37,591 nucleotides of DNA from a virus: positions 1-37,591 of IMG/VR virus record IMGVR_UViG_3300010885_035971. One strand, given 5' to 3'. This document shows, in pieces, positions 725 through 26,647 of the stretch. Made by a program: the position numbers and the translations under genes. Numbering within the stretch: position 1 is the stretch's first letter; every line of letters begins with the position of its first letter. The notes beneath the pieces are model-generated. The model was not told the origin of the DNA and searched no databases. It saw nothing but the letters and a program-made list of their open reading frames with translations.

Positions 725-732
725 ATTAGTTT

Positions 733-10700: not shown

Positions 10701-13700
10701 AAACACTCCTGCCGGTACTCCATATGTATCGTTGAAGGAGGGCAAGACTATTAGTAAGATTGGCCTGCCAGTGGGGGTCGAGAATCTCTCATGGATTCCA
10801 GATGTTGGTGGTAAACCAGTACTACAGATCAAAGGGGCAAAGTATATTGGTGAGGGTAACGTGACGACAGAAATCCATCTTACTGATAAAGGGCAGATTG
10901 AAGATGCCTTGCGGTATTACAATACTTCTGTTGAAGAGATGTCCAATCCAGAAAATATCGGCCAGTTAGAACTTAACCTTTTCGATGATGCGCCTGTCGA
11001 TACGCCAGCAGAAACCCCAACTCCTGCCCCCGCAGATGTTGTTCCTGATGGGGGTACGCCCGTAGTAGTTCCTGTTCCTACTCCTGTTAGAGGGAAAAAG
11101 ATAACGGGTAAAAAAGGTGTTGAACCAGTACCTACATCCGTAGAACCAACGCCTACGCCCACACCTGTAGGGCCTACACCTACAAGTCCAGCAGTTACAC
11201 CGGAAGAGCAACTATTTGCCGATACTTTTAAGAGTAATGAATTAGCCATGAAGCTAAGGGATCTTAACGCAAAAGAGGAAGGAGCTAGCCAAGAAGATCT
11301 TTTTAATTTAAAACAAGAATTGGGGGAGAACTTCGGACCTGCTACCGCTGGTCTGATGGGTCTTATAGTCGATGCTTCCCAAAAAGCTAAGGCTATGGAT
11401 GGGTCTCAAGCTGAGGCACAGACGAATATCCTTAATAATGTAGCCACAATTCGTACGTTAGTAGAGCAGTTAAAAAATGCACCTTTTACTAGCAAAGATG
11501 AAGATGTACCTACTCCGGTACCTACTGAAACTCCGGTACCTACTGAAACTCCGGCACCTACTGAAACTCCGGTACCTACTGAAACTCCGGTACCTACTGA
11601 AACTCCGGTACTTACACCAACAACAAAGAAAAAGGCTACTACACCGAAGAAGAGAGTTCCAGTTAGTGGGATTACAGAAACAACCGTTGTAGATAACCCC
11701 CAAGACACTCAAGCTGAGATTGGTGATCTTGGAGTTAAGCTAGTTAGTTTAGAGGATACTGTTCCTGTGCCTAACCCCAACGGAAAGAATAAGATTATTT
11801 TTAGTCAGCTCAAGGAGAACTTTGAGACACTACGAAAACAAATAGAAATAGCAGATACACATGGGGAAGATGTCCCTAGTGATACACGTACTAAATTGCA
11901 TGAGCTTAAACAAGCAGTAGATACAGGTCAAGCTATTGTTGATACGGAATCCAAAAGGATTGATGGTCTAATTACTGATCTTAGTTCTGTTCCTGCTGAT
12001 GAGCAAACCCCATCCGAAGCGGATATCCTAACCGCAGATGCTATTGATATTATTGAAACAAATGGTAAACCAGAAAAACCAAAAAAGCTTACTAAAGTCG
12101 TAAAGAAAAAACCTGTTACTTCTGAACCGATCAATAGTGAACACGGTGTGTTTCGTAATACATCTGAAGCTGAGAGCTTCGCAGAGTTTGTCAATGGCGG
12201 ATACTTTATAACTGACCTCAAAGGACAGGGATTTTCACCGAGACCAGAAAGCGGTATTCCATTTCAAGCATACTCAGTAGAAATTAAGAAACGTCTGTTC
12301 GCCGCTGTAACTGAGCGATTCCCTCTTATCGAGGTGCCTGAAGGTTCGGCTACAGAAACATCTAAGAAAAAAGTACCCAATATGATGGGTGACGATCCTA
12401 GTGTTATTCAACTACCTGTTATTAAAGACCCAAATGGTAACGTCATCAGTGGTATTTTTACCAACGACCCGCTTATAACAGCAAGCCAATTAGATCGGCG
12501 GATTACGGTTCTAATCCCTAAACACATAGCAGAATCCTCAACCTTTAAGAAGAACCCATCAATTGACGTTAGCGAAATTGGTGACGGTGCTTTCGTTGTG
12601 GTGAGCGTAAAGCCACATCCAAATCATAGTGGCGTATACGGAGCAGGTGACTTGTCCACCCCAGCACGTGAGTATACACCGATAAGCAAGTTAGGTGACT
12701 TAGGGGGCTTGCTTCGTAAGCCTGCTGATACTAATCTTGATGGTGTATATTCAGCTAGGGGTAGAGCAAATAATACATTTGATACCCTAATGAATGATAT
12801 GATGGCTGAAACGAATGAGCCAAATAAAAGTGGAGAGGGGAGTAAATATACAGGATTAGTACGAACCATAATGTCAGCGTCTGGCATTAACCGTTCCGTA
12901 ATAGATGAAGTTGTTAGCGCGGCTACGGTTAACTACGCTAATGGAGTAAAAGAATATGCTCTCGCTAAAAAGATTGAGAAGGCTGTAGCTTCCAAAGGTG
13001 GTAATATATCAGATGTAAATCTTAATAAACTTATCTTGGATGAAATGGTGGGTGACGACAATAAAGAACCCTCATTAAAAACAGCAGCAGATGCAATCCG
13101 AAAGACTGGAATTAAAGGTAAGGATAATGTTGAGGTTCTAAATAACTATGGTAGAAATTTACACGACCGAATAACGGAAGGTAATCTTCAGGCAGGACCA
13201 GAGCAGTACCGAACGGTACTAAATAAGGCCGCTAACGCACAGCAAGAAGCACAAATCCTTAGAAAAGGTAGTCGTCCAGTAATAAGTGCATATTCTGAAT
13301 CTGGAAACTTTACCCAGTTTAATTCTATGCTTGACAGTATAGTAGATGAAAATGCAGATGTTCGTGCTGAAGTAATGCGAAAAGACGGGCATGATACCCT
13401 TGAACTGTTTACTAATGCCCTTGACTCAAACTCTGAGATGAGGACTCTGCTATCCAGACTTGTTAGATCTGTTGCTAATACAACTGAAGCAACTACAAGT
13501 AAAGACCTTATAAATTTAGCGGGTCAGATTTTAAATCAAAAGGGGAAAGAGGACCAAATTATCCTTACAAGGGCGCTACAAAGTACTCACGATGGAGCGA
13601 TGTTGGCTAATCTACTCATAGATGCAGGATTTTTGCCATCAGGAAACGGTACATACATCACACCAACAGCTACAAAGAAGCTCAAGATTGGCATAGAGCC

Positions 13701-16700
13701 CGTATCTAAGGGAGCTACAATAACCGAACTGAGAGATAGAGTACGTGCGACTAGAATCCTTGCACAGGATTATACTCGGACTGTTATTCAACCGTCCGTA
13801 AGCAATGGCAAAATGCTAGCGGCTACCGCACGTAAGGTAAACACTGCCGAGATACAACGCTTGGGTATTGTAACCGGTAACCCTGAGTCAATTGTATCCG
13901 GTCTCCGTGAAGTGCTTCAGACAGGCTCACAGATGCAACAGATGGTCGCTAATGTATTGCTTGCTTACTCTGATCTAATTCGTAACACGACGTTTGTAAT
14001 TGGCGACCTCGACAGCACCCACTTTGCAGGTGCCTTTATGCCGGATTCCAATATGGTTCTTCTGAACCTATCGGGCCATAATGGACGAGGCGTTGTTGAC
14101 GTCCTACTCCATGAATACCTGCATGCCGTAACTTACCAGACGATGAGCAACCCAACCACACCACATCAGGTGGCTGCGCTCAATCGTATATCTCAACTAC
14201 GCGAACTCACCGCAGTTCAAGCGGCTAAGATGGGCATAGACATGAGCCATTTTGAAGGAGCGCTTACCGATAATAAAGAGTTCCTTACCTATGCGCTTAC
14301 CGCTCCGGAGTTTCAGAGCATCGTTAGCGCCGTCACCCCAAAAGCACAACGGTCTATCCTATCCCGTATCTGGGAGTCCATTAGGTCGCTATTTGGATAC
14401 GCTCCTACCGATACAAAGATGGCAGAAGCATTTAATGAGTTGCTCGATTACACTCAGATGTTTGCCGGTGCCAACACCTTTAATATTGATGCTGCTCGCG
14501 ACATCAATCTCAAATCACAAAGTACCAAAGACGGTTTACGCGCGCTCAAAGAGTTTGCCGAACATCGTGCTAAACTTTTCAAAGGAGTAAACCTTGAGTC
14601 AACGCCCGAAGTATCCACTACATCGGCTACGCCATCCGGTATACTGACTCCAGTTGACCACCTTACTATGGCACTTCCTTCCGGCATGACTATTGAGGAA
14701 GACCCCAACATGAATCAGTTGGCCGGTATCAATAGGAGTAATCCAAATGTCTTGAAGTTTAATAGCACGCACCTGAATGCTTTAGTCGATGGCCTAAGCG
14801 AGAGTGCAACTAAGGCGAGAATCAAAGCTCTAGTCAATCATGAGGTCGCCCATCTTGCAGTTAAGCAAGCATTTACGCCGGAGCATATTCAACAGGTAGC
14901 TTCTGAATTAGGTAGTGACAGGCTGCAAAAAGTAGCTGAGGAATATTACTCTTCATCCGGCTTAACTCATAAAGAGGTACTGGCTAAGATCGAAGAAGAT
15001 CGCGCTTCCGGTATCCTGAATGATGAACGTATTGCCGATGAATGGATCAGGATGCAGGTTGAGAAAGCGGTTAACGGCCATACCTATGAGGAGGTCCTCC
15101 GCGCTACCAAAGGCAACAAGACTCTTATTGGCACGATCACCGATGCAATCAGGGCCTTCGTTACGAAACTCAGTGAGCAGTTTATCAAGAACCCAACTAC
15201 TGAAACAGCAGCGGCAATGTCGATCGCTGAGCGTTCACTTCGCAAGATTAATCAAAGCGGTTCGATTGATTTTGGTGTAGAGCATAACGGTAATGGTGGC
15301 TTTGGGGATGTCGGAAACCTGATGGCCGCCCTTGATGGCGCACCGTTTGAAGATCAGACATCGTACGCTATTACAGTTCTCTCATCTGCTGAAGGCAAGG
15401 CTGAGCGTGTGCATGAGAAACTACACCTATACAATCTCCCATCTAAGCTACGGGATTTTATTAGCTTTCGATCTGGTACGGTTAACCAAATTGCTGTCTC
15501 CTCTAAAGACTTAGTTAAGAAGTTTCCTAAGCTTCAAGAGATAGCCCTTAAGGGTGGTGTCCCTATGGAAGACATCAAGATGCTCTTTGGTACTACGGCA
15601 GCACCATTAACTAAGGCAGACTTAAAGAACATCTCGGATAAAGTTGCAGCATATGAGGCAACGATCCCTGACACTGAGACTGAAGGGCATAAAGCAGATC
15701 TTGTTAAGGAGTATAGCGAGAAGCTCAAGCGCGAACAACGTCTTCGGTTTAATGATGCGTTTGCCAAGATGCAACAAGCTGCTGAGGAAAGCATTCGAGC
15801 TGCAGGTTTCGGAGAACTTGTAGATAAAGTAGTTAGCTTTAGGCAGGATATCAATACGTTTAAGGAGTCAGTAGGGTTTGATGAGTCAAACAATATCTAC
15901 CTTACTCGCGCATACAAGTTCTTTACTACTAAGGGATGGGCAGAGGCTACGAAATTCGGTGGTGTACTAAAGATTGAAGGGCAAGATGTTGACTTCAATA
16001 AGCTACGTGAAAATGCGGCGGCTCTATATTACGAAGAGTCTGAGGCTCAGCTTAAGAAGATTGGTGACCCTTACACTAGCGAGGATGTAAGTAACCTTAC
16101 ACTCCACAAACTAGATAAGTATTTAGAATCACTAGAGACAATGTCGTCTGCGGTTGATAAGACAACAGTTGATTCAATCCGTAAAGACCTTGATAGGTTT
16201 AAGCCTAAGAAAGATATTGATTCTACCTTTCGCGAACTCTTAGGCGAGATTGAAGACCCACTCGCAAATGCAGTCAATACTATGTATCGAGTTGGCATGC
16301 TGGCAGCAAATGACCAGTTCAGAACTAATTTTGCCGCAACAGCGAAGAGCTTAGGCTTAGCGAGCGTGACACCAAAAGAGGGGTGGGTTCAATCCTATGC
16401 ATCTAACTCTGTAAAAACTACAGGCCCTCTTGCTGGTTTATACTTTGACCCAAAGGTCGCCGGAGTATTGAACGAGATGTTCGGGACCAACATGAAAGGG
16501 CTTAATTCTGCAAGCACCGACATGATGAACACTTTAGGTAAAGCAGTTATGAAAGTAACGGGCGCTTCTGTTCTTATGAAGACTCAGTTTGGATTAGGAT
16601 ACTGGCCGCGCAATGCTATCGGTGGCTATCTACTTAGTGCCGCTCAAGGTATCTTACTTAATCCATTCTCATCTAAGACCCGACAATCCGTTATAGAATC

Positions 16701-18345
16701 TTTCAGGGCGTCATACAGTATGCTACCCAATGAGGGAGAGCAGAGGAACTCTATTCGTAGATTGATTCAGCTTAATGTACTCAATGACCAGTCGCAAGGG
16801 AGAGTTGCTCAGGATCTTCTGAGGGGCTTAATCTCTTCTCCTGAAAGTGAATTGATGGATCTGATATCCATTGTTGATGAGGCTAGAGTTACTAAAGATA
16901 CCGGTGGTGCTATGGCAATGATGAAAGCAAAAGGATATCTTAAGGGCTCTTTAGGTGCAGCATGGGGTACCTTTACTAATGTAGCTGACTTCCTCGCTGC
17001 TCTTGATGGTGCAGTAGACGGCTCGTTCAAAGCGAACGCATACCACTATGAACTTGATGTTATCAATAAGCACTTTGGTACTTCAATGTCTACTGAAGCA
17101 AAAGAAGAACTTGCTGCCCGTAAAGTCAAACTTACGTTTGCTGGGCAGTCTCAAGTTGTAGACGCAGTTAAGTCATTTAATAGGAGCCCAATGGCACAGA
17201 TCTTCCTACCATTTGCTCGTTGGAAGTCTGAGGTATTTCGTACTATGTTGAATACAATCCCCCTTGCACAGGAAGAAATTGGTCAAGGCGGTGTAATGGC
17301 ACGCCGAGGTTTCCAGCGACTAGCTGGCTTTATCGGCACACTTTCGTTAGGCGGTGCGGCGATTGGCGCTCTAGCTACTGTAGTATTCAAGGGATTAACG
17401 GGTAGCGGTGACGAGGAAGAACGCAATCTTACACCCCAAGAACTCGCAGCGTTACGTGAGTCACTACCCCAATGGCAGCAAAGTGCTAACCTAAACTCAC
17501 GTATCCTAAAAGGTGGTAAGATACAGTTCATTGATATGAGTTACATCCTTCCGCACAGTCAACTTACGGATGCCTTAGGTATCGTAAAAGAAGCCTTTCA
17601 AACTGGCGAGACTAAGCAGATTGCGTCACGCCTAGCTAGCTATGTTACCGGAGACCTGATTGGGGTGCAGATTGCAGCCTCTGCAGTTAGTGAGATACTA
17701 AACAATACGGATAATAGAGGCCAGCCAATCTATCTAGAGACTGATAATACCGCGATGAAGATGCAGCGCATGCTCCAGTATTATGGGAAGAATGCTCTTA
17801 TCCCATCATCTTACTCGAAGATTGAAGATATTACTAGAGCTGGCCAACAAGATGCGACCTCTATTTTCTGGGGAGAAGTCATAGGTGCGAGACCTAAGAC
17901 AGTGACCTTTGGGGATATGGAACGCAGAGGGTTCAGAAACATTAAAGACTTACTCGACAAGTCCGTATCCCTTGCCGGTGAACTTACTAGCGGTAGGAAT
18001 ATGTCAGAGTCCCAAGTTGACGATGCCGTAGACAGGCATCAGGATAACATCAACGAGACGCAGCATAGGCTTAGTATGTTCATGAAGTCGATGGTCTCTA
18101 TGGGTGCTAGTCCTGCCGAAGTATTCGCATCAGCTAAGCAGTACAAGTTCAGCGATGATACCCTAGCTTCGGCGTTTCAAGGATACCGTATCGCGTGGAG
18201 ACCGAACGACAAGTGGTTGCAAAAGACTTACTACAATGTGGCGCAGGCTAAGGAGCAAGACCCAATGGAGCGCGTCAATAGCATCAGACGTTCGGTCTCA
18301 CGCAAGGCGGCAATCAACTACGTCAACGGCGTGTCCGATGAATAG
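7792..18345 (+). CDS. Giant polyvalent virion protein with two zincin motifs, 3,517 aa
   Basis: A 3,517-residue single ORF taking 28% of the window. Its N-terminal third is helical with Gly/Ala-rich hydrophobic stretches (about 455-470, 510-530, 640-660, 775-790). Pro/Thr linkers follow near 1090-1135 and 1240-1280. A zincin motif HEYLH lies at His2107-His2111 with a likely third ligand Glu2163 (NKEFLTYALT). A second, HEVAH, lies at His2350-His2354. The C-terminal ~750 residues (from PLANAVNTMYRVG) resemble conserved tails of phage 'large polyvalent proteins', with a hydrophobic segment near 3170-3200. Likely ejected with the DNA, as with T7 gp16-type proteins; that role is inferred. No RNA polymerase motif was seen despite a size like N4 vRNAP. 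Confidence 0.85.
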   Translation: MLEIKPFDTWADTATTAIADPSEKIRQYADYVRTSTYKNGEFNDNTEKDIQQGIQDRAVKDGIFTKDDTEDTFNQKMQALTAPIQNKDADARFLLDHYQHDFAPDSPEFSEKAPVLQRYLTLKQSAPNSIADIQDTVDGYLNDKDSIKSARLSAVDRGDYRVVAVDEADGRQLYTGADTNPDNLNGELDSLISNGAIAPSDLRDVHHLMSPINGGKSTVAQATRYNVFSDALSKEAKNDPTLKSSLDNEAAKIREAKRVAQQTTGEGILEGAKSLVAIPIDWLAGKITDVFGVTHPEEVVPPPSELVGGNKAISERFSNTEINQFLGDYLKHASGPVYRADRPETGIDTDSLGNPMVSPALIGNKSEFEKALKDSPLNEDQKQRATIQRTAMLETEAPKMLKLVLGESDAAVSAYAVAKGAGKTDSDFLESWIGDSKNYSGLSERLQQLGMSTFSALATLPVGIGALMGIEPAAKALVAMNKDQSDREEYARMFGDEFGLGFQSLNLVPQIATDVIATIGTTGAYALAKEGLSAVVRSVAKGSTKAIMREATRSAMSLVDAAAADVAKEAAKVGGESLVGDAFKAVAENLPAKLNIAERAAPVFIVGFTRSAASTYGSIYSQLDENMSHEEKHRAAFGYAMAAGLSTGIITTGMSVLGHGGVEDLATGKFRPATAVDELATDVHKVPIGDLNYKQAKFLYENLQNASNTVTDKAFQTALRDSIGGAYKNYLGHVIKGSLDEGFKGALDQAIRGKLEDAALDKTTPLAERVNQVWSAFAIGGAMGGIAPAFKQIASPLNVSEMSQALDARVTVLTTVADKLRKSGSTATAEVLQRQLNDAQAAASAQKQADIAAKQKKTETAATEEVVDHSDKPLEFDPYGQSEMDLGDVRSKTLPLATRFLADHIGERAYVGSDAGTLELNDDGSVSLTLDKEKGYGIKSLNLGAKYQNIDRTSVTLDRKRLLVLDKNTGNTPAGTPYVSLKEGKTISKIGLPVGVENLSWIPDVGGKPVLQIKGAKYIGEGNVTTEIHLTDKGQIEDALRYYNTSVEEMSNPENIGQLELNLFDDAPVDTPAETPTPAPADVVPDGGTPVVVPVPTPVRGKKITGKKGVEPVPTSVEPTPTPTPVGPTPTSPAVTPEEQLFADTFKSNELAMKLRDLNAKEEGASQEDLFNLKQELGENFGPATAGLMGLIVDASQKAKAMDGSQAEAQTNILNNVATIRTLVEQLKNAPFTSKDEDVPTPVPTETPVPTETPAPTETPVPTETPVPTETPVLTPTTKKKATTPKKRVPVSGITETTVVDNPQDTQAEIGDLGVKLVSLEDTVPVPNPNGKNKIIFSQLKENFETLRKQIEIADTHGEDVPSDTRTKLHELKQAVDTGQAIVDTESKRIDGLITDLSSVPADEQTPSEADILTADAIDIIETNGKPEKPKKLTKVVKKKPVTSEPINSEHGVFRNTSEAESFAEFVNGGYFITDLKGQGFSPRPESGIPFQAYSVEIKKRLFAAVTERFPLIEVPEGSATETSKKKVPNMMGDDPSVIQLPVIKDPNGNVISGIFTNDPLITASQLDRRITVLIPKHIAESSTFKKNPSIDVSEIGDGAFVVVSVKPHPNHSGVYGAGDLSTPAREYTPISKLGDLGGLLRKPADTNLDGVYSARGRANNTFDTLMNDMMAETNEPNKSGEGSKYTGLVRTIMSASGINRSVIDEVVSAATVNYANGVKEYALAKKIEKAVASKGGNISDVNLNKLILDEMVGDDNKEPSLKTAADAIRKTGIKGKDNVEVLNNYGRNLHDRITEGNLQAGPEQYRTVLNKAANAQQEAQILRKGSRPVISAYSESGNFTQFNSMLDSIVDENADVRAEVMRKDGHDTLELFTNALDSNSEMRTLLSRLVRSVANTTEATTSKDLINLAGQILNQKGKEDQIILTRALQSTHDGAMLANLLIDAGFLPSGNGTYITPTATKKLKIGIEPVSKGATITELRDRVRATRILAQDYTRTVIQPSVSNGKMLAATARKVNTAEIQRLGIVTGNPESIVSGLREVLQTGSQMQQMVANVLLAYSDLIRNTTFVIGDLDSTHFAGAFMPDSNMVLLNLSGHNGRGVVDVLLHEYLHAVTYQTMSNPTTPHQVAALNRISQLRELTAVQAAKMGIDMSHFEGALTDNKEFLTYALTAPEFQSIVSAVTPKAQRSILSRIWESIRSLFGYAPTDTKMAEAFNELLDYTQMFAGANTFNIDAARDINLKSQSTKDGLRALKEFAEHRAKLFKGVNLESTPEVSTTSATPSGILTPVDHLTMALPSGMTIEEDPNMNQLAGINRSNPNVLKFNSTHLNALVDGLSESATKARIKALVNHEVAHLAVKQAFTPEHIQQVASELGSDRLQKVAEEYYSSSGLTHKEVLAKIEEDRASGILNDERIADEWIRMQVEKAVNGHTYEEVLRATKGNKTLIGTITDAIRAFVTKLSEQFIKNPTTETAAAMSIAERSLRKINQSGSIDFGVEHNGNGGFGDVGNLMAALDGAPFEDQTSYAITVLSSAEGKAERVHEKLHLYNLPSKLRDFISFRSGTVNQIAVSSKDLVKKFPKLQEIALKGGVPMEDIKMLFGTTAAPLTKADLKNISDKVAAYEATIPDTETEGHKADLVKEYSEKLKREQRLRFNDAFAKMQQAAEESIRAAGFGELVDKVVSFRQDINTFKESVGFDESNNIYLTRAYKFFTTKGWAEATKFGGVLKIEGQDVDFNKLRENAAALYYEESEAQLKKIGDPYTSEDVSNLTLHKLDKYLESLETMSSAVDKTTVDSIRKDLDRFKPKKDIDSTFRELLGEIEDPLANAVNTMYRVGMLAANDQFRTNFAATAKSLGLASVTPKEGWVQSYASNSVKTTGPLAGLYFDPKVAGVLNEMFGTNMKGLNSASTDMMNTLGKAVMKVTGASVLMKTQFGLGYWPRNAIGGYLLSAAQGILLNPFSSKTRQSVIESFRASYSMLPNEGEQRNSIRRLIQLNVLNDQSQGRVAQDLLRGLISSPESELMDLISIVDEARVTKDTGGAMAMMKAKGYLKGSLGAAWGTFTNVADFLAALDGAVDGSFKANAYHYELDVINKHFGTSMSTEAKEELAARKVKLTFAGQSQVVDAVKSFNRSPMAQIFLPFARWKSEVFRTMLNTIPLAQEEIGQGGVMARRGFQRLAGFIGTLSLGGAAIGALATVVFKGLTGSGDEEERNLTPQELAALRESLPQWQQSANLNSRILKGGKIQFIDMSYILPHSQLTDALGIVKEAFQTGETKQIASRLASYVTGDLIGVQIAASAVSEILNNTDNRGQPIYLETDNTAMKMQRMLQYYGKNALIPSSYSKIEDITRAGQQDATSIFWGEVIGARPKTVTFGDMERRGFRNIKDLLDKSVSLAGELTSGRNMSESQVDDAVDRHQDNINETQHRLSMFMKSMVSMGASPAEVFASAKQYKFSDDTLASAFQGYRIAWRPNDKWLQKTYYNVAQAKEQDPMERVNSIRRSVSRKAAINYVNGVSDE
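11521..11610 (+). repeat. 18-bp tandem repeat coding a PVPTET linker
   Basis: Five consecutive 18-nt units (CCTACTGAAACTCCGGTA, one with GCA) inside the giant gene encode (PTETPV)n. Near-identity at synonymous positions indicates recent slippage. The linker joins the N-terminal part to the later domains. Confidence 0.85.
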
Positions 18346-19643: not shown

Positions 19644-19705
19644 AATTGTATTGTTTTTGTTTTTAGTTTGGCTTCAGCTACGCGGTAAGCTACGCGGTTT
19701 ACATC
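19644..19705 (-). promoter_or_regulatory. Leader cassette with GCGGTAAGCTACGC box
   Basis: Between the VWA gene and the 198-residue gene: an A-rich leader on the coding strand, and at 19671-19695 a box of the type GCTTCA-N-GCGGTAAGCTACGC. Here AGCTACGCGGT is itself repeated in tandem (from 19676 and 19688). The inverted-repeat part of the other cassettes is absent. Confidence 0.5.
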
Positions 19706-21076
19706 TCACATCTCTGTGATTTCGAGCGCCTCACCGATGGGGAACTCCTTAGCTGGTCGCTCAGTCGTGAGCCACAGCAGGGGATAGTCTACTGGCTTGA
19801 GCTCAGGCAAGTCATCAGACCAGCCATCTGTAAGGTAGACCATCACATCAACCTCATCGACATTCTTGGCAACCCAATCGAATGCCGGATGGAATGCTGT
19901 ACCGCCCCCGCCCTTGAGCTTGGTTGGCACAGCGTCGCTGCGCTCAAGTGTGACGGCATCGCATACGGTATGGCTTACGCTGAGTAGGTGCAGGCGTTCC
20001 GGATTAAGTTCATCCAGCACACTCTGCGCTTCAGATAGGAAGCGGTCGTAGGTTGACTGACCGATAGAGCCGGAGGTATCAATCACTAGCACGATGTCAC
20101 CAGCCCGTTTGCTACGGCGGCCAGCAGCCACAGTCCCGACGGATAGGAAGACAGGTGCATTGAACAACCCTTCCCATCCGGAACGGGACTTCTGTGTAAG
20201 CCATTGGCGTAGCAGGTCAGGCCAGTTCATCTTGCTTGCATCGGCACGCTGGGTGCCAACACGCTGGCCAGTCATTCCGGATTCGGCTTGCTTCCTGCGG
20301 TCGATGTCATCCGCTACAAGTATGCGGTCATTGGCCTCCTCAATCTGGTCGATGGCCTCTTGTTGCGTCTCACCCTCTTCCGCTTCAGGCTCAAGGGTAT
20401 CCGGCGCACCTGTTCCTACGAAGTCAGATAAGTCATCAGGGCCTAACTCATCGCCGTCCTTCGACTTACCGCTGTCGCTGTCGTCGCCGCTGTCGTCGCC
20501 GCTGTCGCTGTCGCCGCTGTCGCTGTCGCCGCTGTCGTCACCGCTGTCATCACCATCCTCAGGCTGCGGCTGCGGCTGCGGTTCAGGCTGTGGCTGTGGC
20601 TGTGGCTGCGGCTTACTGAGTATGCGGTAGAGTTGCTCTGCGCTGTTGTCACCGCTCAAGGGCTCGTCCAGCAGCACCCCGTCAATGAAGGGGAACACCT
20701 CCTTCTTCAGCTCACGATTCCGCATCGCGATCATCGCGTTGATCACGTAGTCGGCAGCGACGTTTGCCCGCTTGTGGTCGGGCAGTTTAGCCAACCGCCA
20801 GCCGTGCCCCAATAGGGCATGCAGTGCCTCATGCACCAGCAAGAATGCAATCAGGCCAGAGGCGTTAGGCTGGCGGCACAGCTTGGCAATGCCTAACTTA
20901 TTGAGCAGTAGGCGGCGACCGTCGGTTGCCCCGTAGGGCACAGTATCAGACCACTGCCATTCCATTGACATCAGCTTACTATAGGCAAGGAACCAGTAGC
21001 GGCTCACGGTTCGCATGGCGGCGGACAGCGGGTGGTCGGTGTCGAACGAGGTGGGGTCAATCGTGTTGGCTTTCAT
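19706..21076 (-). CDS. Metallopeptidase-like plus VWA domain protein (DUF2201 type)
   Basis: 456 residues in two domains. The N-terminal domain has VHEALHALLGHGWR (His82, Glu83, His86, candidate third ligand His91), the zincin-like motif of DUF2201. Then comes a Gln-Pro and Asp-Ser-Gly low-complexity linker (~154-215). The C-terminal VWA has a MIDAS: DTSGS from Asp333, a Thr in GGGGTAFHP, and YLTDGWSD. Proteins of this type pair with MoxR AAA+ ATPases, which remodel targets through the VWA subunit. Here the ATPase and a DUF3150-like gene lie just upstream on the same strand. Confidence 0.85.
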   Translation of the reverse strand: MKANTIDPTSFDTDHPLSAAMRTVSRYWFLAYSKLMSMEWQWSDTVPYGATDGRRLLLNKLGIAKLCRQPNASGLIAFLLVHEALHALLGHGWRLAKLPDHKRANVAADYVINAMIAMRNRELKKEVFPFIDGVLLDEPLSGDNSAEQLYRILSKPQPQPQPQPEPQPQPQPEDGDDSGDDSGDSDSGDSDSGDDSGDDSDSGKSKDGDELGPDDLSDFVGTGAPDTLEPEAEEGETQQEAIDQIEEANDRILVADDIDRRKQAESGMTGQRVGTQRADASKMNWPDLLRQWLTQKSRSGWEGLFNAPVFLSVGTVAAGRRSKRAGDIVLVIDTSGSIGQSTYDRFLSEAQSVLDELNPERLHLLSVSHTVCDAVTLERSDAVPTKLKGGGGTAFHPAFDWVAKNVDEVDVMVYLTDGWSDDLPELKPVDYPLLWLTTERPAKEFPIGEALEITEM

Positions 21077-21140
21077 ATTGTATTGTACTTGTTTTGTTTT
21101 GTTTTATGGAGGGTCGGGGCAACCGGCTACCGGATACAGG
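21077..21140 (-). promoter_or_regulatory. Leader with TTTTG repeats and a CCGG heptad pair
   Basis: Next to the ATG are two to three GTTTT units (CAAAA on the coding strand). Further upstream CCGGCTA CCGGATA places CCGG at 21123 and 21130, 7 nt apart. The box and inverted repeat of the other cassettes are absent; the CCGG pair takes their place. Confidence 0.45.
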
Positions 21141-22037
21141 TTACAGACCTAACGCAGCGAGCGTGTCATCTGCTTTGGCAATTGCCTTATCTGCTTTCGC
21201 GGCGATGCTGTGCCGCTCATCCTTTGTTGGCGTGCCGTTCGGCATAGCGCTCACCTCGGCGACAGCGCAAACTAAAGCATCAATCTCTGGCAGGTCAAGG
21301 AAGTTGAGGTTCTTTAGACGCCGTGCCTCATCGCGAAGCTTATCGAATTGCGTAAGGTGCAAGCGGTCAGCATTGCGCATCGCATCGGTAAAGTCCTCTA
21401 TCACTTTCTTCATGTCGCGGACAGGCCCAGCATGAGCAGTGCGGAAGTCCTCTTCAATCTGGCGCTTGCTGTCCGCCCTTACCCGATTGGCCACCTCTTC
21501 AGATAGACCGGACAGGACAGACTCGTTCACCGCTACCGGCTGATTGATGACTGACAAGCGCATGGTGAAGCGGCTTGCCACTTCGCTCGCTGATGGGATA
21601 GAAACCTCACCGCCGAAACCAGCAAGCTTGCGGATAACTTGGGCCATTAAATCCGGATAGGTGCGCAGGATATCTTCCCGTATCATATCCATCTCGTGTT
21701 GCGCCTCATCGAATAGGTCTTGTACTTTGGCAACGTCCTTCACCCTCAGATAGAAGCCGCCCGTCTGGCACAGCATGCCGAGACGGCGGATAGCTACGCC
21801 CGTCCGTTGCTGCAGGCTGATTGCCTTGCCAACCGCCGTACCTTTGCTGGCAAGTACGGTATTATATAATCGGGCGGCATCCTTTGTTGAGCCCGCTTGA
21901 TTGACGGCGCGAGCCGTGGCAGAACGGTTTAGCGCAGTGGTAGCTGGCGCAGTGGTGGCGAAGTGGCACAGGACAAGGGACTGTGCGACTTTGAGGTTCA
22001 GTGTGTTAGCAGCGTTGGTGGTATTGGTAGTGTTCAT
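21141..22037 (-). CDS. DUF3150-like protein
   Basis: 298 residues, nearly all helical after a low-complexity Asn/Thr start (MNTTNTTNAANTLN). Length, helical character and position between a MoxR-type ATPase and a VWA protein fit the phage DUF3150 family, which is often found next to such ATPases. Assignment rests on context and general resemblance, not on a diagnostic motif. Likely a structural or adaptor partner of the ATPase-VWA pair. It has its own leader cassette, so it may be transcribed or tuned separately. Confidence 0.65.
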   Translation of the reverse strand: MNTTNTTNAANTLNLKVAQSLVLCHFATTAPATTALNRSATARAVNQAGSTKDAARLYNTVLASKGTAVGKAISLQQRTGVAIRRLGMLCQTGGFYLRVKDVAKVQDLFDEAQHEMDMIREDILRTYPDLMAQVIRKLAGFGGEVSIPSASEVASRFTMRLSVINQPVAVNESVLSGLSEEVANRVRADSKRQIEEDFRTAHAGPVRDMKKVIEDFTDAMRNADRLHLTQFDKLRDEARRLKNLNFLDLPEIDALVCAVAEVSAMPNGTPTKDERHSIAAKADKAIAKADDTLAALGL

Positions 22038-22140
22038 AATATCTGTTTTGTTTTGTTTTGTTTTGTTTTGTTTTTATATTTACTCTGCTCCATCTCAGCG
22101 GAAAGCTACGCATCGGGGAAAGTCTAGACGGTCTTGACTT
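22038..22140 (-). promoter_or_regulatory. Intergenic cassette: CAAAA repeat, box, inverted repeat
   Basis: On the + strand, from ATG outward: (GTTTT)n at 22045-22074, box CTCCATCTCAGCGG/AAAGCTACGC at 22087-22111, and an inverted repeat AAGTCTAGA-CGG-TCTTGACTT at 22119-22140 with one mismatch, ending exactly at the stop codon of the ATPase gene. The same order recurs at 23574, 24087, 24648 and 25631. Confidence 0.65.
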
Positions 22141-23232
22141 CTAGCCTAGGATTAAAGCATGCGACTTAGGATGTTCGTCAAGTGGTATGCCGCGCCGGAC
22201 AGCGGAGCGTGTACCGAACTCCCGAATGTCGCCGCGACATTTCAGGAGTAGTGTCACCAGCCAGTCGAAGCCACCACTGTGCACGCCGATGGCAACATCC
22301 TTCACGCCCCTCGTCGCACCGTTAAGGCAGGCACTGACAAGGGCAAACTGCGAGGCCGGATCAGCCGGTATAACAAAGCCATCCGGATCTGATTTGAGGC
22401 TCGCGATATCTGGCAGCATGTCAACGTGCTGAAGGAAACCAAAGTATGCGCTGGCGGCAGCGTCACCGATGCTGCCTTTGACAGCTTTGCGGTAGATGTC
22501 CTTCGCCGCTTTACGCAGTGGCTCAAGCAGCGCGACCGCTTCCCACGTTCTAGGGCACGGATGCGGGCTGCCGTCGTACGGCATGACGATCGGCGGGTTG
22601 AAGTGGTCGAGCCCGTCGCCGCCCGTCGTGCCGAAGCGGAGAAAGGCAGGCACATGGCTCCCGCTACTAGCAAGGGCTGGCATACTATCGTACCAGTCCA
22701 ACCAATCCCCAACGTCCGCCTCAAGCGTTACCTTGATACAGCGCTCAGTGAATGGTGCATCCTCCACAGCGGAGCGGGTACCGTCTTGCCTGCGGTTTGT
22801 GGCGCAGACCACGAACACGTTTGAGCCTAAGGTGTGCGAGCCCACCTTCCGCTTTCCGGAAGCCGGATAAAGGCTGCGGAGCAATGCCCGAACTTGTGGG
22901 TCGTAGTCGTTGACCTCATCCAGAAACAGGAGGACGGGCTCGTCACCGACACGGTCGAACGTCGGCCAGATTTCCGGTGAGGTGAACCAGCCGTCCCTTG
23001 TCTTGCTGTCAGGAACCAGATAGCCAATGGTTTCCTGCGGCCCTTGGCCGTTGAGGTTAACATCCCATACCTTGCGCCCCATCGCAGGGCCAAGGACATT
23101 GCAGACCATGCTGGTCTTGCCAGCACCGCCCGACCCGACGATCATCAGGAAGCGGTTGGCGAGGAGCGCTGCCTCAGCAAGGGGCAGGAGTTCGGATGGG
23201 CGGATTGGATTGATTGCATTTGTCGATTTCAT
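22141..23232 (-). CDS. MoxR-type AAA+ ATPase
   Basis: 363 residues. Walker A GSGGAGKT at 33-40 (Lys39), Walker B LLFLDEVND (Asp105-Glu106), sensor 1 VVCATNRR (Asn146) and an arginine-finger candidate FTERC (Arg164). The NGQGPQETIGY loop after Walker A and the overall layout match MoxR/CobS-like ATPases, which assemble as rings and act with VWA proteins as chaperones or metal-insertion machines. It heads the ATPase, DUF3150-like, VWA series. In a phage the target is unknown. Confidence 0.85.
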   Translation of the reverse strand: MKSTNAINPIRPSELLPLAEAALLANRFLMIVGSGGAGKTSMVCNVLGPAMGRKVWDVNLNGQGPQETIGYLVPDSKTRDGWFTSPEIWPTFDRVGDEPVLLFLDEVNDYDPQVRALLRSLYPASGKRKVGSHTLGSNVFVVCATNRRQDGTRSAVEDAPFTERCIKVTLEADVGDWLDWYDSMPALASSGSHVPAFLRFGTTGGDGLDHFNPPIVMPYDGSPHPCPRTWEAVALLEPLRKAAKDIYRKAVKGSIGDAAASAYFGFLQHVDMLPDIASLKSDPDGFVIPADPASQFALVSACLNGATRGVKDVAIGVHSGGFDWLVTLLLKCRGDIREFGTRSAVRRGIPLDEHPKSHALILG

Positions 23233-23303
23233 TTCGTTCTTTTGTTTTTGTTTTGCGCTTCAACTAGGCGGTGAGCTGCGCCGGAGACAGGACTGTAATT
23301 CAG
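23233..23303 (-). promoter_or_regulatory. Intergenic cassette, type B box
   Basis: A short A-rich leader lies next to the ATPase start. Box GCGCTTCAACTAGGCGG/TGAGCTGCGCC at 23255-23281. A different hairpin, CTGTAA-TTCAG-TTACAG at 23293-23309, overlaps the stop codon of the next gene upstream and replaces the usual inverted repeat. Confidence 0.55.
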
Positions 23304-23573
23304 TTACAGGATAACGTCAATGATTTCATTCACTTTTATTTTTACAGGCTTTTTGCCAGTATACGCTAAGCGTTTTATGTCTGCCTTTAGTACTTCCACA
23401 ATAGTGTTCTCGACTTCATAGATAGCGCAGTAAATATAGCCGCTACCGTTCGGTGTTCCGGCATACACATTAGGCGTGCCGCCGATAGCTTTCAGCGCAG
23501 CAAGCCGGACTTGCAAGTCAACCAATTGCTTGGCGTTAGATTCAAAGTTAAGGTTAAGGGATACAGGGTACAT
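23304..23573 (-). CDS. Hypothetical protein, 89 aa
   Basis: Start taken at ATG 23573 (MYPVSLNLNFESNAK); the in-frame extension upstream is translated CAAAA repeat (NKTKN). Mixed alpha/beta: an N-terminal strand, a helix (LVDLQVRLAALKAIG), a strand pair ending YIYCAIYEVENTIVEVLK, and a C-terminal strand (KPVKIKVNEIIDVIL). No family recognised. Single gene flanked by cassettes on both sides. Confidence 0.6.
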   Translation of the reverse strand: MYPVSLNLNFESNAKQLVDLQVRLAALKAIGGTPNVYAGTPNGSGYIYCAIYEVENTIVEVLKADIKRLAYTGKKPVKIKVNEIIDVIL

Positions 23574-23657
23574 GTTTTTAGTTTTGTTTTGTGTTTTGTG
23601 CTCCATCTCGGCGGAAAGCTACGCCTTTGAAAAGTCTAGACCGTCTTGACTTTCTGC
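23574..23657 (-). promoter_or_regulatory. Intergenic cassette: CAAAA leader, box, inverted repeat
   Basis: A-rich leader at 23577-23597, box GCTCCATCTCGGCGG/AAAGCTACGC at 23600-23624, and inverted repeat AAAGTCTAGA-CCG-TCTTGACTTT at 23631-23653 (one mismatch), 4 bp before the stop of the beta-helix gene. Confidence 0.65.
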
Positions 23658-24086
23658 TTAGATTACAGAATTTCCGGAGATCCAAGAATTTCCGGAGATC
23701 AAAGAATCGCCGGAGATTACAGAATTTCCGGAGATCCAAGAATTTCCGGAGATGAAAGAATCGCCGGAGATTACAGCATCTCCGTAGATTGCAGAATTTC
23801 CGCAGACTACAGTATGGCCGGAGATTACAGCATTGCCGTAGGCGACAGAATTTCCAGAGATCCAAGAATTGCCGGAGATTACAGCATCTCCGTAGATCCA
23901 AGAATTTCCGGAGGCTGCAGCCTCGTCGGCGATCCAAGCATTGCCATCGTGGGCTAGGTTGGCTTCCGATTCTACCCAACCGCCTAACTCTCCGGCGCTC
24001 ACGTTCCCGAAGGCCCTTAGGGCTTCGATCCTGTAAAGCGTCACCCCGTCTTTTTCTTTCGATTTGTTTGTCAATTTATATTTCAT
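23658..24086 (-). CDS. Beta-helix repeat protein (ISGNSWISGNSV repeats)
   Basis: 142 residues. The N-terminal ~45 (MKYKLTNKSKEKDGVTLYRI...AGELGGWVESEANL) is the conserved cap of a widespread phage/prophage family. After it comes a six-residue periodic repeat, (I/V)-(S/Y)-G-(N/D)-(S/A)-(W/V), running to the stop. The hexad period with small residues suggests a left-handed beta-helix. DNA repeats are nearly identical, so copy number probably varies. The protein ends inside the repeat (GNSVI), so loss of a C-terminal cap is possible. Function unknown. Confidence 0.8.
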   Translation of the reverse strand: MKYKLTNKSKEKDGVTLYRIEALRAFGNVSAGELGGWVESEANLAHDGNAWIADEAAASGNSWIYGDAVISGNSWISGNSVAYGNAVISGHTVVCGNSAIYGDAVISGDSFISGNSWISGNSVISGDSLISGNSWISGNSVI

Positions 24087-24182
24087 GTGTCTTGTTCTGT
24101 TTTGTTTTTGCGCTTCAACTAGGCGGTGAGCTGCGCCTTTGAAAAGTTAAGACCGTCTTAACTTTTTGATTTGATGGTGCGC
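24087..24182 (-). promoter_or_regulatory. Intergenic cassette, type B box with compensated inverted repeat
   Basis: Leader with GTTTT units, box GCGCTTCAACTAGGCGG/TGAGCTGCGCC at 24110-24136, and inverted repeat AAAGTTAAGA-CCG-TCTTAACTTT at 24143-24165. Against the other copies both arms have changed (C to T and G to A), keeping the pairing. A second hairpin GTGCGCT-CA-AGCGCAC at 24177-24192 covers the stop codon of the next gene and could be its terminator. Confidence 0.65.
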
Positions 24183-24401
24183 TCAAGCGCACACTGGGCC
24201 CGATTTCATAGCATAAAAGGTGCCAGCGTAGAAGTATCGCTTGGCATGGATGTAATAACTATCCATGCCGCGCACCTTGCGCACTGTGTAACACGGTCTT
24301 TCATACTCACCGTAGGCGAGATAATACGTGGCAGCATTCAGGATAGTTTTGGCGGCATGCGCTTCGGCATGGGTGGAATAAGTCTTATACGTGGTGGTCA
24401 T
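24183..24401 (-). CDS. Hypothetical Tyr-rich protein, 72 aa
   Basis: Begins MTTTYKTYSTHAEAHAAKTIL, rich in Tyr and Ala, basic. One helix (HAEAHAAKTILNAATYYLAYG) is followed by probable strands (ERPCYTVRKVRG; YIHAKRYFYAGTF). No motif recognised. Flanked by cassettes and read in the same direction as its neighbours. Confidence 0.55.
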   Translation of the reverse strand: MTTTYKTYSTHAEAHAAKTILNAATYYLAYGEYERPCYTVRKVRGMDSYYIHAKRYFYAGTFYAMKSGPVCA

Positions 24402-24456
24402 GGTGTTTTATTGTTTTTGTTTTTGTCTTTTGAAAAGTCAAGACCGTCTTGACTTT
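24402..24456 (-). promoter_or_regulatory. Short cassette: A-rich leader plus inverted repeat, no box
   Basis: Leader of GTTTTT units, then a perfect 10-bp inverted repeat AAAGTCAAGA-CCG-TCTTGACTTT at 24434-24456 that touches the stop codon (24456-24458) of the next gene. The box element is missing here. Confidence 0.6.
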
Positions 24457-24647
24457 CAGAGCCGAGCCCCTTTCGCCAATGGTGGCAAGTCGAAGGCTAA
24501 GGTGGAGATGCGGGTTGGTAGCCATAGGCAAAGCGTACGGCCTAGGACGTTAGGCATCGGCTTGCGCAGGTCTTGCAATGCAGCGGGGTTCTTGATGGCT
24601 AGGTACTGAACCGCAGCGGTGATTTGAATAGTGGACTCTTGTTTCAT
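24456..24647 (-). CDS. Hypothetical protein, 63 aa
   Basis: MKQESTIQITAAVQYLAIKN, then a Pro/Leu-rich second half (GRTLCLWLPTRISTLAFDLPP). No recognised domain. Support comes from a full cassette upstream, an ATG after the CAAAA leader and the inverted repeat at its stop. The composition of the C-terminal half is odd, so a frameshifted remnant cannot be excluded. Confidence 0.5.
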   Translation of the reverse strand: MKQESTIQITAAVQYLAIKNPAALQDLRKPMPNVLGRTLCLWLPTRISTLAFDLPPLAKGARL

Positions 24648-24751
24648 GTGTCTTGTTCTGTTTTGTTTTGTTTTGTTTTGTTTTGGTGCTCCATCTCAGC
24701 GGTAAGCTACGCATCAGGGAAAGTTAAGACCGTCTTGACTTTCTGGTTTTA
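24648..24751 (-). promoter_or_regulatory. Intergenic cassette with (GTTTT)5
   Basis: (GTTTT)5 at 24660-24684, box GCTCCATCTCAGCGG/TAAGCTACGC at 24688-24712, and inverted repeat AAAGTTAAGA-CCG-TCTTGACTTT at 24720-24742 (one T-G apposition), followed by CTGGTTT and the stop of the Gp88-like gene. Confidence 0.7.
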
Positions 24752-25630
24752 TCAATGGACGCCGGTTGCGACGGTGACTCCGGCCATGCGGAATGAGCCA
24801 CAGGCATGCGACCCATCGGCTAGGCAATCGCCACACTTTCCGGGGCATACAAAGACCCGCTCGCCTGCCGATTCCCGAACGTTCTTTGCATAGGCAGCAT
24901 GGCCAGCATTACGCTTGCTTTGATACGCTTTGCTTGTCATGTGGTGCCCTGCTACGGGCACGGCGATGAACTCCCCCCTTGTGATGGGTAGGGTGAGCAT
25001 GATTCCCTTGAGCATTTCGTCATGCCTGCTGCCGGATGAAAGGTTAAGGGCGTAGTTTGTTGGCCACACGTAGCCCGACAGCTTGAGTTGGATAAATTCA
25101 AGCCAGCTTTTTGAGTAGCCATAAAGTTGAAGGTCTGGCCGCTCATGGCAAAGACCCATCCAAAACTTAAGGCATTCTACGCTGTGGAAATCACCGTCCA
25201 CATAGAGACGGACGGCGACGCCGTTAGGTAGGGCGAGGAAAGCCTTGCGGATCAAGGCCCGCCCCTCACCGCTTCGGAGTAGCATGGAGTTGGATACTTG
25301 TCTCCCCCATGCGTTAGGTTGACGCCAAGCGGTTTTACTATAGCACCACTTTCCGCATTCACCGTAGCCAGCACAATCTAAGATTGCCATGCTGCTGAAG
25401 CAATAGAACGGAAGCTTGCCATTGCCTCTCGTGAATATGGAAAAGGCAGCGTAAGGCTTGCTGACGACGTCTAGAAGCTTGCCAATGACGTCCTGCCATG
25501 AGCCATTCGACACGGCCCGAGATGGGTTATCCGCTAGGAAGCGGAGCGAACTATTGGTCGCCCCGTTGATTAGGTCTGAGGCAATGCTGAGCCCCAAGGC
25601 GTGGGGCATTTTAGGCGTGTAGTTTTTCAT
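24752..25630 (-). CDS. Gp88-like cysteine-rich phage protein
   Basis: 292 residues from ATG 25630 (MKNYTPKMPHALG); upstream in-frame sequence is translated CAAAA repeat. A first Cys cluster, CAGYGECGKWCYSK, is followed by RLYVDGDFHSVECLKFWMG and RPDLQLYGYSKSW, and a second cluster CPGKCGDCLADGSHAC near the C-terminus. This order (Cys cluster, DGDF/SGDF, YxYSKSW, C-terminal Cys cluster) matches the phage 'gene product 88' family. The cysteines probably bind metal or an Fe-S cluster. Biochemical role not established. Confidence 0.7.
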   Translation of the reverse strand: MKNYTPKMPHALGLSIASDLINGATNSSLRFLADNPSRAVSNGSWQDVIGKLLDVVSKPYAAFSIFTRGNGKLPFYCFSSMAILDCAGYGECGKWCYSKTAWRQPNAWGRQVSNSMLLRSGEGRALIRKAFLALPNGVAVRLYVDGDFHSVECLKFWMGLCHERPDLQLYGYSKSWLEFIQLKLSGYVWPTNYALNLSSGSRHDEMLKGIMLTLPITRGEFIAVPVAGHHMTSKAYQSKRNAGHAAYAKNVRESAGERVFVCPGKCGDCLADGSHACGSFRMAGVTVATGVH

Positions 25631-25730
25631 GTTCTTTGTTTTGTTTTGTTTTGTTTTGTTTTGGTGCTCCATCTAAGCGGAAAGCTGCGCGTCGGAAAAA
25701 GTCAAGACAGTCTTGACTTTCTGGTTTGAA
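25631..25730 (-). promoter_or_regulatory. Intergenic cassette with (GTTTT)5, variant loop
   Basis: GTTTT units at 25638-25662, box GCTCCATCTAAGCGG/AAAGCTGCGC at 25666-25690, and a perfect inverted repeat AAAGTCAAGA-CAG-TCTTGACTTT at 25698-25720, then CTGGTTT before the stop of the next gene. Confidence 0.7.
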
Positions 25731-26234
25731 TCAGGCGACAAGGCCGGAAATGACTTCCAGCATGGCGTTGGCCTGCGCCTCAGTCATTGTCCCCAATGTC
25801 TTGAGACTTGCGAGAACTTGTTCGAACGTGTAACCGGTTCCCTCTTTCTGGTCGCCGGTTTCATCTTGGCTTTTCGCCTTGTCCTTCCCGCGGTTTTTCG
25901 ACGCGTCACCATCGTAAACCACTGCTAATAATTGAGCAATTCTTTGCTTCGTGACCAACCCAACCGCGTTTAGGAACTTGCTGGCGTCTTTTCTGGTCAT
26001 CGTCGTCGCATAACAAGCTTCAACCAGCTTGCGCGTGGCTTGCGAATCGTCGACGTTGCCCCCTATCTTGGACCATTCATTCGCAAGCGCTACTCCTGCA
26101 GCTTTGAAGTCTTCTCCGGCAGCCTGACATAAGGCCGCGACGGCTAGTGTCAGACTATGTGATGCGGTGGCGCAATTCCATAGGGCAGCGGAGGCGTCGG
26201 ATGCGGCGGTTTCAATCGTGATGTTCATTTTCAT
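25731..26234 (-). CDS. Hypothetical helical protein, 167 aa
   Basis: Start taken at ATG 26234 (MKMNITIETAASDASAALW); the longer frame is translated TTTG repeat (QTNKQTNK). Ala-rich helical N-terminal half, a central helix set (ATRKLVEACYATTMTRKDASKFLNAVG), a charged linker (GDASKNRGKDKAKSQDETGDQ) and a C-terminal helix pair (FEQVLASLKTLGTMTEAQANAMLEV). No known domain. First gene of the minus-strand block; its leader holds nine TTTG units. Confidence 0.65.
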   Translation of the reverse strand: MKMNITIETAASDASAALWNCATASHSLTLAVAALCQAAGEDFKAAGVALANEWSKIGGNVDDSQATRKLVEACYATTMTRKDASKFLNAVGLVTKQRIAQLLAVVYDGDASKNRGKDKAKSQDETGDQKEGTGYTFEQVLASLKTLGTMTEAQANAMLEVISGLVA

Positions 26235-26238
26235 GTTC

Positions 26239-26274
26239 TTTGTTTGTTTGTTTGTTTGTTTGTTTGTTTGTTTG
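26239..26274 (-). repeat. (TTTG)9 tetranucleotide microsatellite
   Basis: Nine perfect TTTG units, read as (CAAA)9 on the coding strand, end 4 nt before the ATG at 26234. It is the longest pure microsatellite in the window. Confidence 0.9.
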
Positions 26275-26377
26275 TGCAGGCATTCGTCGCCTACACTACC
26301 TTGACAGGGCAGGGGTCGAACCAATCCACTTTCCCCCGCTTGGCTGCTTTGCACAATAGATACCGATCGGTAGGTAT

Positions 26378-26395
26378 CCGGCGTCCGGTGACCGG
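26378..26395. repeat. CCGGNNN heptanucleotide cluster
   Basis: CCGG at 26378, 26385 and 26392 with exact 7-nt spacing (CCGGCGT CCGGTGA CCGG). A perfect 12-bp palindrome TACCGATCGGTA lies just before it (26361-26372). The 26235-26658 gap holds the TTTG repeat, these elements, a second CCGG pair at 26521 and promoter-like signals, but no gene that I can support. Confidence 0.65.
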
Positions 26396-26455
26396 TTTAC
26401 ATCTTACCAGTATGCTGTCGCTTTAATGCGCTTTTTGAATAGTTATAATTCATTG

Positions 26456-26502
26456 AAAATGAACACGTTGCACATAATAGTCAATTCCGCATTATGTTCA
26501 TT
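26456..26502 (-). promoter_or_regulatory. Possible minus-strand promoter within nested inverted repeats
   Basis: On the minus strand TTGACT (26484-26479), 17 bp, CATTTT (26461-26456). Around the -35, ACATAAT (26472-26478) pairs with ATTATGT (26491-26497), and AATGAACA (26458-26465) pairs with TGTTCATT (26495-26502). This looks like an operator over a promoter for the minus-strand block. The leader to ATG 26234 would be about 215 nt. Confidence 0.4.
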
Positions 26503-26520
26503 GTCACAAGTTGAATGGTG

Positions 26521-26531
26521 CCGGATGCCGG
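26521..26531. repeat. CCGG heptad pair
   Basis: CCGGATG CCGG with 7-nt spacing, 20 bp from the nested inverted repeats. Confidence 0.5.
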
Positions 26532-26618
26532 TTTTCAGCGGGACGCCACGGGTGGGTGCGCAATTTTTTCTTCTTCTCTTGATATGAATATACCCTTAGA
26601 GGAAAAAATAATTGAAGG

Positions 26619-26647
26619 TTGACGAGGGCATATAAACAGGGTATTCT
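26619..26647 (+). promoter_or_regulatory. Sigma70-like promoter, start of the right-hand plus-strand block
   Basis: TTGACG at 26619-26624, 17 bp, TATTCT at 26642-26647. The first in-frame starts are TTG 26659 and ATG 26665, so the leader is roughly 5-12 nt. Confidence 0.6.

Follow-up and report, generated by a model that had tools for sequence, protein, structure and literature searches.

Palindrome and box elements at the gene junctions of an uncultured phage clade: candidate portable modules of gene control

Beyond a few models such as T4 and the mycobacteriophages, little is known of how phages fit accessory genes of foreign origin into their programme of expression. The question is raised by a 37.6-kb virus fragment (IMG/VR record IMGVR_UViG_3300010885_035971, 37,591 nucleotides, hereafter the window), in which one co-directional minus-strand block bears copies of a palindrome (AGTCAAGACNGTCTTGACT; inverted repeat type A, IR-A) and of a box (GCGNAGCTNNCCGCNNAGNTGNAGC) at its gene junctions. 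The block comprises a first gene, c40 (167 aa), a GP88-like gene, several small genes, an AAA ATPase gene, a DUF3150-like gene and a DUF2201/VWA gene (Table 1). Eleven close relatives were retrieved through the AAA protein and then read, of which G002 and G003 are near-identical and were counted once. The reading tentatively preferred here, although it falls somewhat short of probable, is that these elements are portable gene-junction control modules, the palindrome being a DNA site for a regulator and the box a hairpin in the leader of the message.

A scan of the window for the palindrome, allowing up to three mismatches, recovered the six copies listed in a preliminary description of this DNA and no others in 37.6 kb, and a scan for the box at zero mismatches recovered all seven listed copies, every one on the minus strand; shuffled sequences are expected to contain 0.02 of each. 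Wherever both elements are present (at 22.1, 23.6, 24.1, 24.7 and 25.7 kb), the order is, as had been described, stop codon, palindrome, box, leader, ATG. The two main box subtypes proposed there both exist, but the copy at 19671 belongs to neither and makes a third (CTTCAGCTACGCGG in plus-strand letters). One subtype holds an ATG (GAGATGGAGC), which is why two open reading frames (ORFs) were listed with starts within a box, at 25672 and 23606; the true starts are likely to be at 25630 and 23573 instead. The A-rich leader is the constant part of the junction, there with or without palindrome and box; its AAAAC microsatellite is peculiar to the window contig, the leaders of the relatives being A/C-rich without perfect AAAAC repeats.

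As a discrete 27-nt element with a fixed strand orientation, the box is confined to a single clade of uncultured phages, in which about 22 IMG/VR contigs carry it. When a box weight matrix was applied to the close relatives, every site scored at least 36 bits and the range from 8 to 36 bits was empty; every box is in the sense orientation, a few tens of bases 5′ of an ATG. When 2.9 million viral contigs were scanned for the exact pattern, the matches were this clade and four chance occurrences in coding sequence (L135, L141, L153 and L155), and further contigs contain either the box without mismatch or only chance-like near matches. No credible match was found in 84,980 bacterial and archaeal genomes, where the 78 exact-pattern matches are scattered across phyla, one per contig; three of the 78 passed a filter for AT-rich or AAACA-containing sequence downstream, but none resembles the element, and they were dismissed as chance. 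The profile scan of window and relatives that had been suggested beforehand thus finds the box conserved over 27 nt in about 22 contigs, which contradicts the idea that the copies are decayed duplications only. Repeats spread by recombination without regulatory function would be expected to look alike within a genome, as these do, and could account for the one horizontal transfer described below; such an origin is nevertheless improbable in view of the gap in matrix scores, the unvarying sense placement before ATG, and palindromes that arose inside ORFs without change of length.

Alignment of orthologous intergenic gaps among the relatives shows palindrome and box to be two separate modules, each of which can come or go at a given junction without the other. 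At the VWA-c8 junction, the boxless form is a stop codon followed by the A-rich leader, and the boxed form has the same leader after about 31 extra bases, a clean insert. At the AAA-DUF3150 junction, the box stands alone in G001 and G002, palindrome and box are both present in G004, G005, G011 and the window, and a second clade has neither. At the c43-c44 junction, G002 and G009 have palindrome and box, G011 has another palindrome, and G006 and G007 have no element at all; IR-A has been exchanged for another palindrome both here and at c85-c58.

The more distant G015 (L253), with 45% amino acid identity to the window in the AAA protein and 66% in TerL, contains a palindrome, a box and the start of a leader (16061-16145) that are 92% identical over 85 nt to window positions 24664-24748. 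The gene adjoining this cassette encodes a beta-solenoid and matches the window gene at 23658-24086, and the remaining similarity between G015 and the window in the 20-kb piece consists of short matches only (about 20-130 nt). No second box was found in the G015 record, nor a second intact IR-A within the piece scanned with the palindrome pattern. The simplest reading is that a regulatory cassette would have been transferred together with a gene into a distant lineage. Since each element comes and goes without the other at shared junctions, and since the diverged G015 carries a cassette, the two are taken to be mobile regulatory modules. The earlier proposal that they delimit accessory genes as units and help gene swapping agrees with the functional-looking, clean inserts at orthologous junctions and with the one cassette that crossed to a distant lineage; the independence of palindrome and box, and the palindromes inside genes of relatives, were not part of it. 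The beta-solenoid gene itself has an 18-bp repeat period, and two such genes are in tandem in L253.

The palindrome module measures 17-23 bp and lies mostly 0-13 nt 3′ of stop codons, sometimes within ORFs. Six contigs contain about 38 clear copies of IR-A (39 were listed, one of them spurious), approximately ten of which are inside ORFs. In the c40 genes of G002, G004 and G005, an in-frame IR-A encodes an SQ(D/E)GLDK linker, the G009 copy being degenerate; IR-A is also found in c64 and at two different places in the c43 gene (G002 versus G009), where its arrival left the length of the protein unchanged. The centre, which is asymmetric, is found both ways round (CCC/GGG, CGG/CCG), stem mismatches show no preference for G-U, T tails are only 3-5, and no minus-strand terminator-like call falls at any copy. 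IR-A differs in these respects from an intrinsic terminator, which is a GC-rich hairpin with a U-tract outside genes. The palindrome is probably not a simple terminator, a role unsuited to copies within ORFs and to both orientations of the centre; a DNA-binding site fits best, and it is predicted to be an operator- or stoperator-like site for a phage regulator. In G014, a sigma-70-like promoter (TTGACA-17-TATCAT) and the start codon flank an analogous palindrome, six copies of which form a 26-bp tandem array before the cluster; in G013 there is a 35-bp array of a version particular to that genome. Both ends of G014 consist of tandem arrays (L251 1-153, L252 19500-20000): one is made of the six 26-bp units, with palindrome TGTCATATTTATGACA, and the other of CTGTCACG-like units in a long run. 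Elsewhere in G014 (L251, 2336 region), a truncated start (ATGAAAACTGCGTAG) precedes a box, and farther downstream a copy of the palindrome runs across what seems to be the next start codon, an arrangement that resembles a recombination scar.

If the junctions were strict equivalents of promoter-early stem-loop (PeSL) cassettes, the palindrome would be the intrinsic terminator of the upstream gene, the box would be a promoter, possibly one read by the host RNA polymerase with the help of a phage factor, and each gene would be its own transcription unit. The order of palindrome, box and leader, the location directly past stop codons and the transfer of one cassette with a gene are all as this explanation predicts. 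It is unlikely, however, given the palindromes inside ORFs, the short T tails, the missing terminator-like calls, the junctions that are boxless in relatives, and two properties of the box itself: it has no sigma-70 match, and it shows a hairpin covariation unexpected for a promoter. Sigma-70-like sites never overlap the boxes, and their regional count of 6 is at the chance level of 6.3, which bears out the noted absence of a sigma-70 -10 element. A phage-specific promoter, as first suggested, is likewise not supported, given the lack of a -10 and the absence of the box from the same junction in some genomes; a search for a single-subunit (T7-type) RNA polymerase detected none, its control search being also silent, and the giant protein of the phage matches an internal virion protein.

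Among 25 distinct box cores, none of the 351 column pairs has more mutual information than positions 1 and 16 (0 of 20,000 permutations), which are U-A in 17, C-G in 2, G-C in 2 and unpaired in 4. This pair closes a 4-bp stem, NGCG-(UAGCUUAC)-CGCN, whose remaining pairs scarcely vary (one G-C to G-U). On this ground, and with no sigma-70 match at the boxes, an RNA element in the 5′ leader is weakly favoured over a promoter. Several points weigh against a box hairpin: single-sequence folds contain the stem in only 14 of 41 copies, the hairpin is short, and the covariation depends on one variable pair, with kinship among the sequences able to inflate permutation results. The idea of an RNA element, also raised in the preliminary description, thus gains from one strongly covarying base pair but not from folding energy, which is ordinary (mean z -0.35). 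In an H-type pseudoknot of the box the second helix is mostly invariant, and an alternative fold (UGC/GCA with UAGCU/AGUUG) is well paired but was set aside as lacking covariation. Rfam covariance models gave nothing near the gathering score and no hit at the boxes.

The type of palindrome follows the first gene of the cluster: genomes whose cluster begins with c40 have IR-A, and those whose cluster begins with c57 have palindromes of a second type, IR-B (CTTATTCCG..CGGAATAAG and variants). The type switches inside close pairs, G002 (c40) with G001 (c57) at 96% in TerL and G009 (c40) with G008 (c57) at 97%. From this pattern we infer that c40 may be the regulator of the cluster. Several observations speak against a regulator that binds IR-A as DNA. 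G011 has c57 together with both palindrome types, and the association of IR-A with c40 can be explained, partly or fully, by linkage, with the region recombining as a block. The predicted structure of c40 is all-helical with a mean predicted local distance difference test (pLDDT) score of 64, and a structural search with it gave no significant match. The half-site spacing of IR-A, 14-17, varies between and within genomes. Finally, IR-B resembles an RNA hairpin, which IR-A might then be as well: the flanks of IR-B form a covarying outer stem and show 10 G-U versus 0 A-C departures in the structured copies, the inner-stem count being fixed by the search pattern and so uninformative. IR-B copies (L119, L116, L129-L131, L266) fold as a larger hairpin in which an internal loop accompanies this covarying outer stem, and the flank on the 3′ side is conserved (AGCGGTTCATAACCCGC); they are a candidate structured RNA of another kind than the box. 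For the palindrome family as a whole, DNA and RNA readings are both possible.

An explanation in terms of RNA would make the palindromes RNase III sites, 3′-end protectors or attenuators, through which one long transcript of the cluster would be processed to messages about the size of a gene, as happens in the early region of T7, with the box within the processed 5′ leader. The structure of IR-B, with only G-U departures in its paired flank, the substitution of hairpins of differing sequence at the same junction and the variable spacer length are all in its favour. It is doubtful on the whole, since IR-A has no G-U preference and occurs in both orientations; moreover, cleavage at copies inside ORFs would ruin the message, and tandem arrays before the cluster would be odd as processing sites.

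In the preferred reading of DNA site plus leader hairpin, the palindrome would be bound by a phage protein specific to the genome type, probably the product of the first gene (c40 here). The bound regulator would act on RNA polymerase travelling along the cluster in the manner of a stoperator, and would thereby insulate or meter each accessory gene. The transcribed box would fold into its small hairpin at the head of the leader and tune the translation or stability of the message of its own gene, and the repeated modules would supply homology for gene swapping. A more speculative extension, which we consider unlikely, is an addressing system: each genome type would mark nearly every accessory gene with a palindrome peculiar to that type and would have a first-gene regulator to match, an incoming gene would have to gain the resident palindrome to come under control, and the separate leader box would represent a new family of small structured RNA regulators. 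Palindrome, box and leader can here be separated by comparison alone, have been caught moving and shift in type with a candidate regulator, and therefore the addressing idea is directly testable.

Table 1. Junction elements and genes of the minus-strand block of the window, in the direction of transcription within each class.
Feature	Position	Strand	Remarks
IR-A AAAGTCAAGACTGTCTTGACTTT	25698..25720	-	13 nt past stop of first cluster gene
IR-A	24720..24742	-	one C/A mismatch in gene-strand stem
IR-A without box	24434..24456	-	immediately past stop codon
IR-A, both arms altered (GTTAAGAC/GTCTTAAC)	24143..24165	-	pattern scan
IR-A	23631..23653	-	one A/A mismatch
IR-A	22119..22140	-	one A/A mismatch; 2 nt past AAA ATPase stop
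Box CGCGCAGCTTTCCGCTTAGATGGAGCA	25665..25691	-	
Box TGCGTAGCTTACCGCTGAGATGGAGCA	24687..24713	-	
Box GGCGCAGCTCACCGCCTAGTTGAAGCG	24111..24137	-	
Box GGCGTAGCTTTCCGCCGAGATGGAGCA	23599..23625	-	
Box GGCGCAGCTCACCGCCTAGTTGAAGCG	23256..23282	-	without IR-A; preceded by unrelated small hairpin CTGTAACTGAATTACAG
Box TGCGTAGCTTTCCGCTGAGATGGAGCA	22086..22112	-	
Box CGCGTAGCTTACCGCGTAGCTGAAGCC	19670..19696	-	without palindrome
A/C-rich leader, (AAAAC)5	25631..25664	-	before GP88-like gene; no Shine-Dalgarno-like sequence seen
A/C-rich leader, (AAAAC)5	24648..24686	-	
A/C-rich leader, (AAAAC)6	22038..22085	-	before DUF3150 gene
First cluster gene c40	25731..26234	-	167 aa; all-helical model; candidate regulator; co-occurs with IR-A; copies in relatives hold in-frame IR-A
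Accessory gene, GP88 family (PF17338)	24752..25630	-	family match
Accessory gene, YdcK-like beta-solenoid repeats	23658..24086	-	relative of this gene bears transferred cassette in L253
AAA ATPase (phrog_1297)	22141..23232	-	family match
DUF3150-like protein	21141..22037	-	match falls under Pfam curated cut-off
DUF2201/VWA protein	19706..21076	-	family match

The terminase and portal proteins had zero matches by protein similarity among 50,697 phage records, and therefore the clade is described as uncultured; a nucleotide similarity search of the cluster region against cultured phages also gave no match. It is a little-known family of freshwater phages and apparently lytic, with no indication of lysogeny; integrase, HTH_3 repressor and ParB were not found in searches whose controls worked. 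Distant relatives of the AAA protein occur in N4-like and other phages, which bears on an N4-type explanation, namely that the palindromes are DNA-hairpin promoters of short stem and small loop, read by a polymerase within a giant virion protein. Their hairpin form resembles that reported for N4 (PMC4496689), N4-like AAA and VWA genes are present, and so is a virion-type protein of 3,500 aa. Such promoters are highly improbable here, since the profile of the giant protein matches an internal virion protein, with no RNA polymerase match in PDB and no motif-B signature, and since the palindromes occur in both orientations and inside ORFs. Identification of the giant protein as the N4 virion RNA polymerase is not supported at the sequence level. 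The protein (window 7792-18345) has 3,517 aa, with about 3,500-4,500 aa in most relatives, matches 9sfn (the internal virion protein) and phrog_22602, and contains a conserved LHEYxHA metalloprotease-like motif. Outside the block, two adjoining minus-strand genes at window 113-1308 are built of repeated RLDGPAVE-type units, and in several relatives the gap between c15 and the first cluster gene (window ~26270-26640, for example) contains a conserved GTCAACCTCAATTATTTTTTTCTC block adjoining a sigma-70-like promoter that points to c15.

Among known systems, the PeSL cassettes, reportedly described by Arbiol in 2010 and Comeau in 2014, offer the first comparison. According to an account that cites those descriptions, they are mobile regulatory cassettes of T4-type phages (PMC4503421), and the two systems share a short intergenic stem-loop with a second element at the junctions of a plastic gene region, and an association with gene shuffling between phages (here the clean inserts and the G015 transfer). 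By that account, the present cassette differs in having no early sigma-70-type promoter (none at the boxes, counts at chance), in the presence of the stem-loop inside ORFs as well, in the independent assortment of palindrome and box, and in a box unique to the clade. The stoperators of Cluster A mycobacteriophages are likewise many dispersed sites with a genome-specific consensus, but they are asymmetric and mostly in one orientation (PMC6550527, PMC9283540), whereas the present sites are palindromic, in both orientations and confined to one cluster. A cognate repressor binds stoperators and stops elongation there; here c40, which co-occurs with IR-A, would be the candidate, and no integrase or HTH_3 repressor was found. 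The SPBRE operators of SP-beta, bound by MrpR, were also repeated intergenic elements proposed in silico as regulator sites, but they sit in prophage promoters (PMC10516654), and no promoter was found at the present sites. The hairpin promoters of the N4 virion RNA polymerase are similar as short inverted repeats upstream of early genes, but they are only three in number and oriented (PMC4496689), and no RNA polymerase was detected in the present phage. In behaviour the junction system is closest to the PeSL cassettes of T4, and its palindrome is closest to stoperator or SPBRE arrays, although it lacks a defining feature of PeSL cassettes and one of stoperators. It is a real, mobile, two-part junction system, a module kin in spirit to the T4 type and built of new parts.

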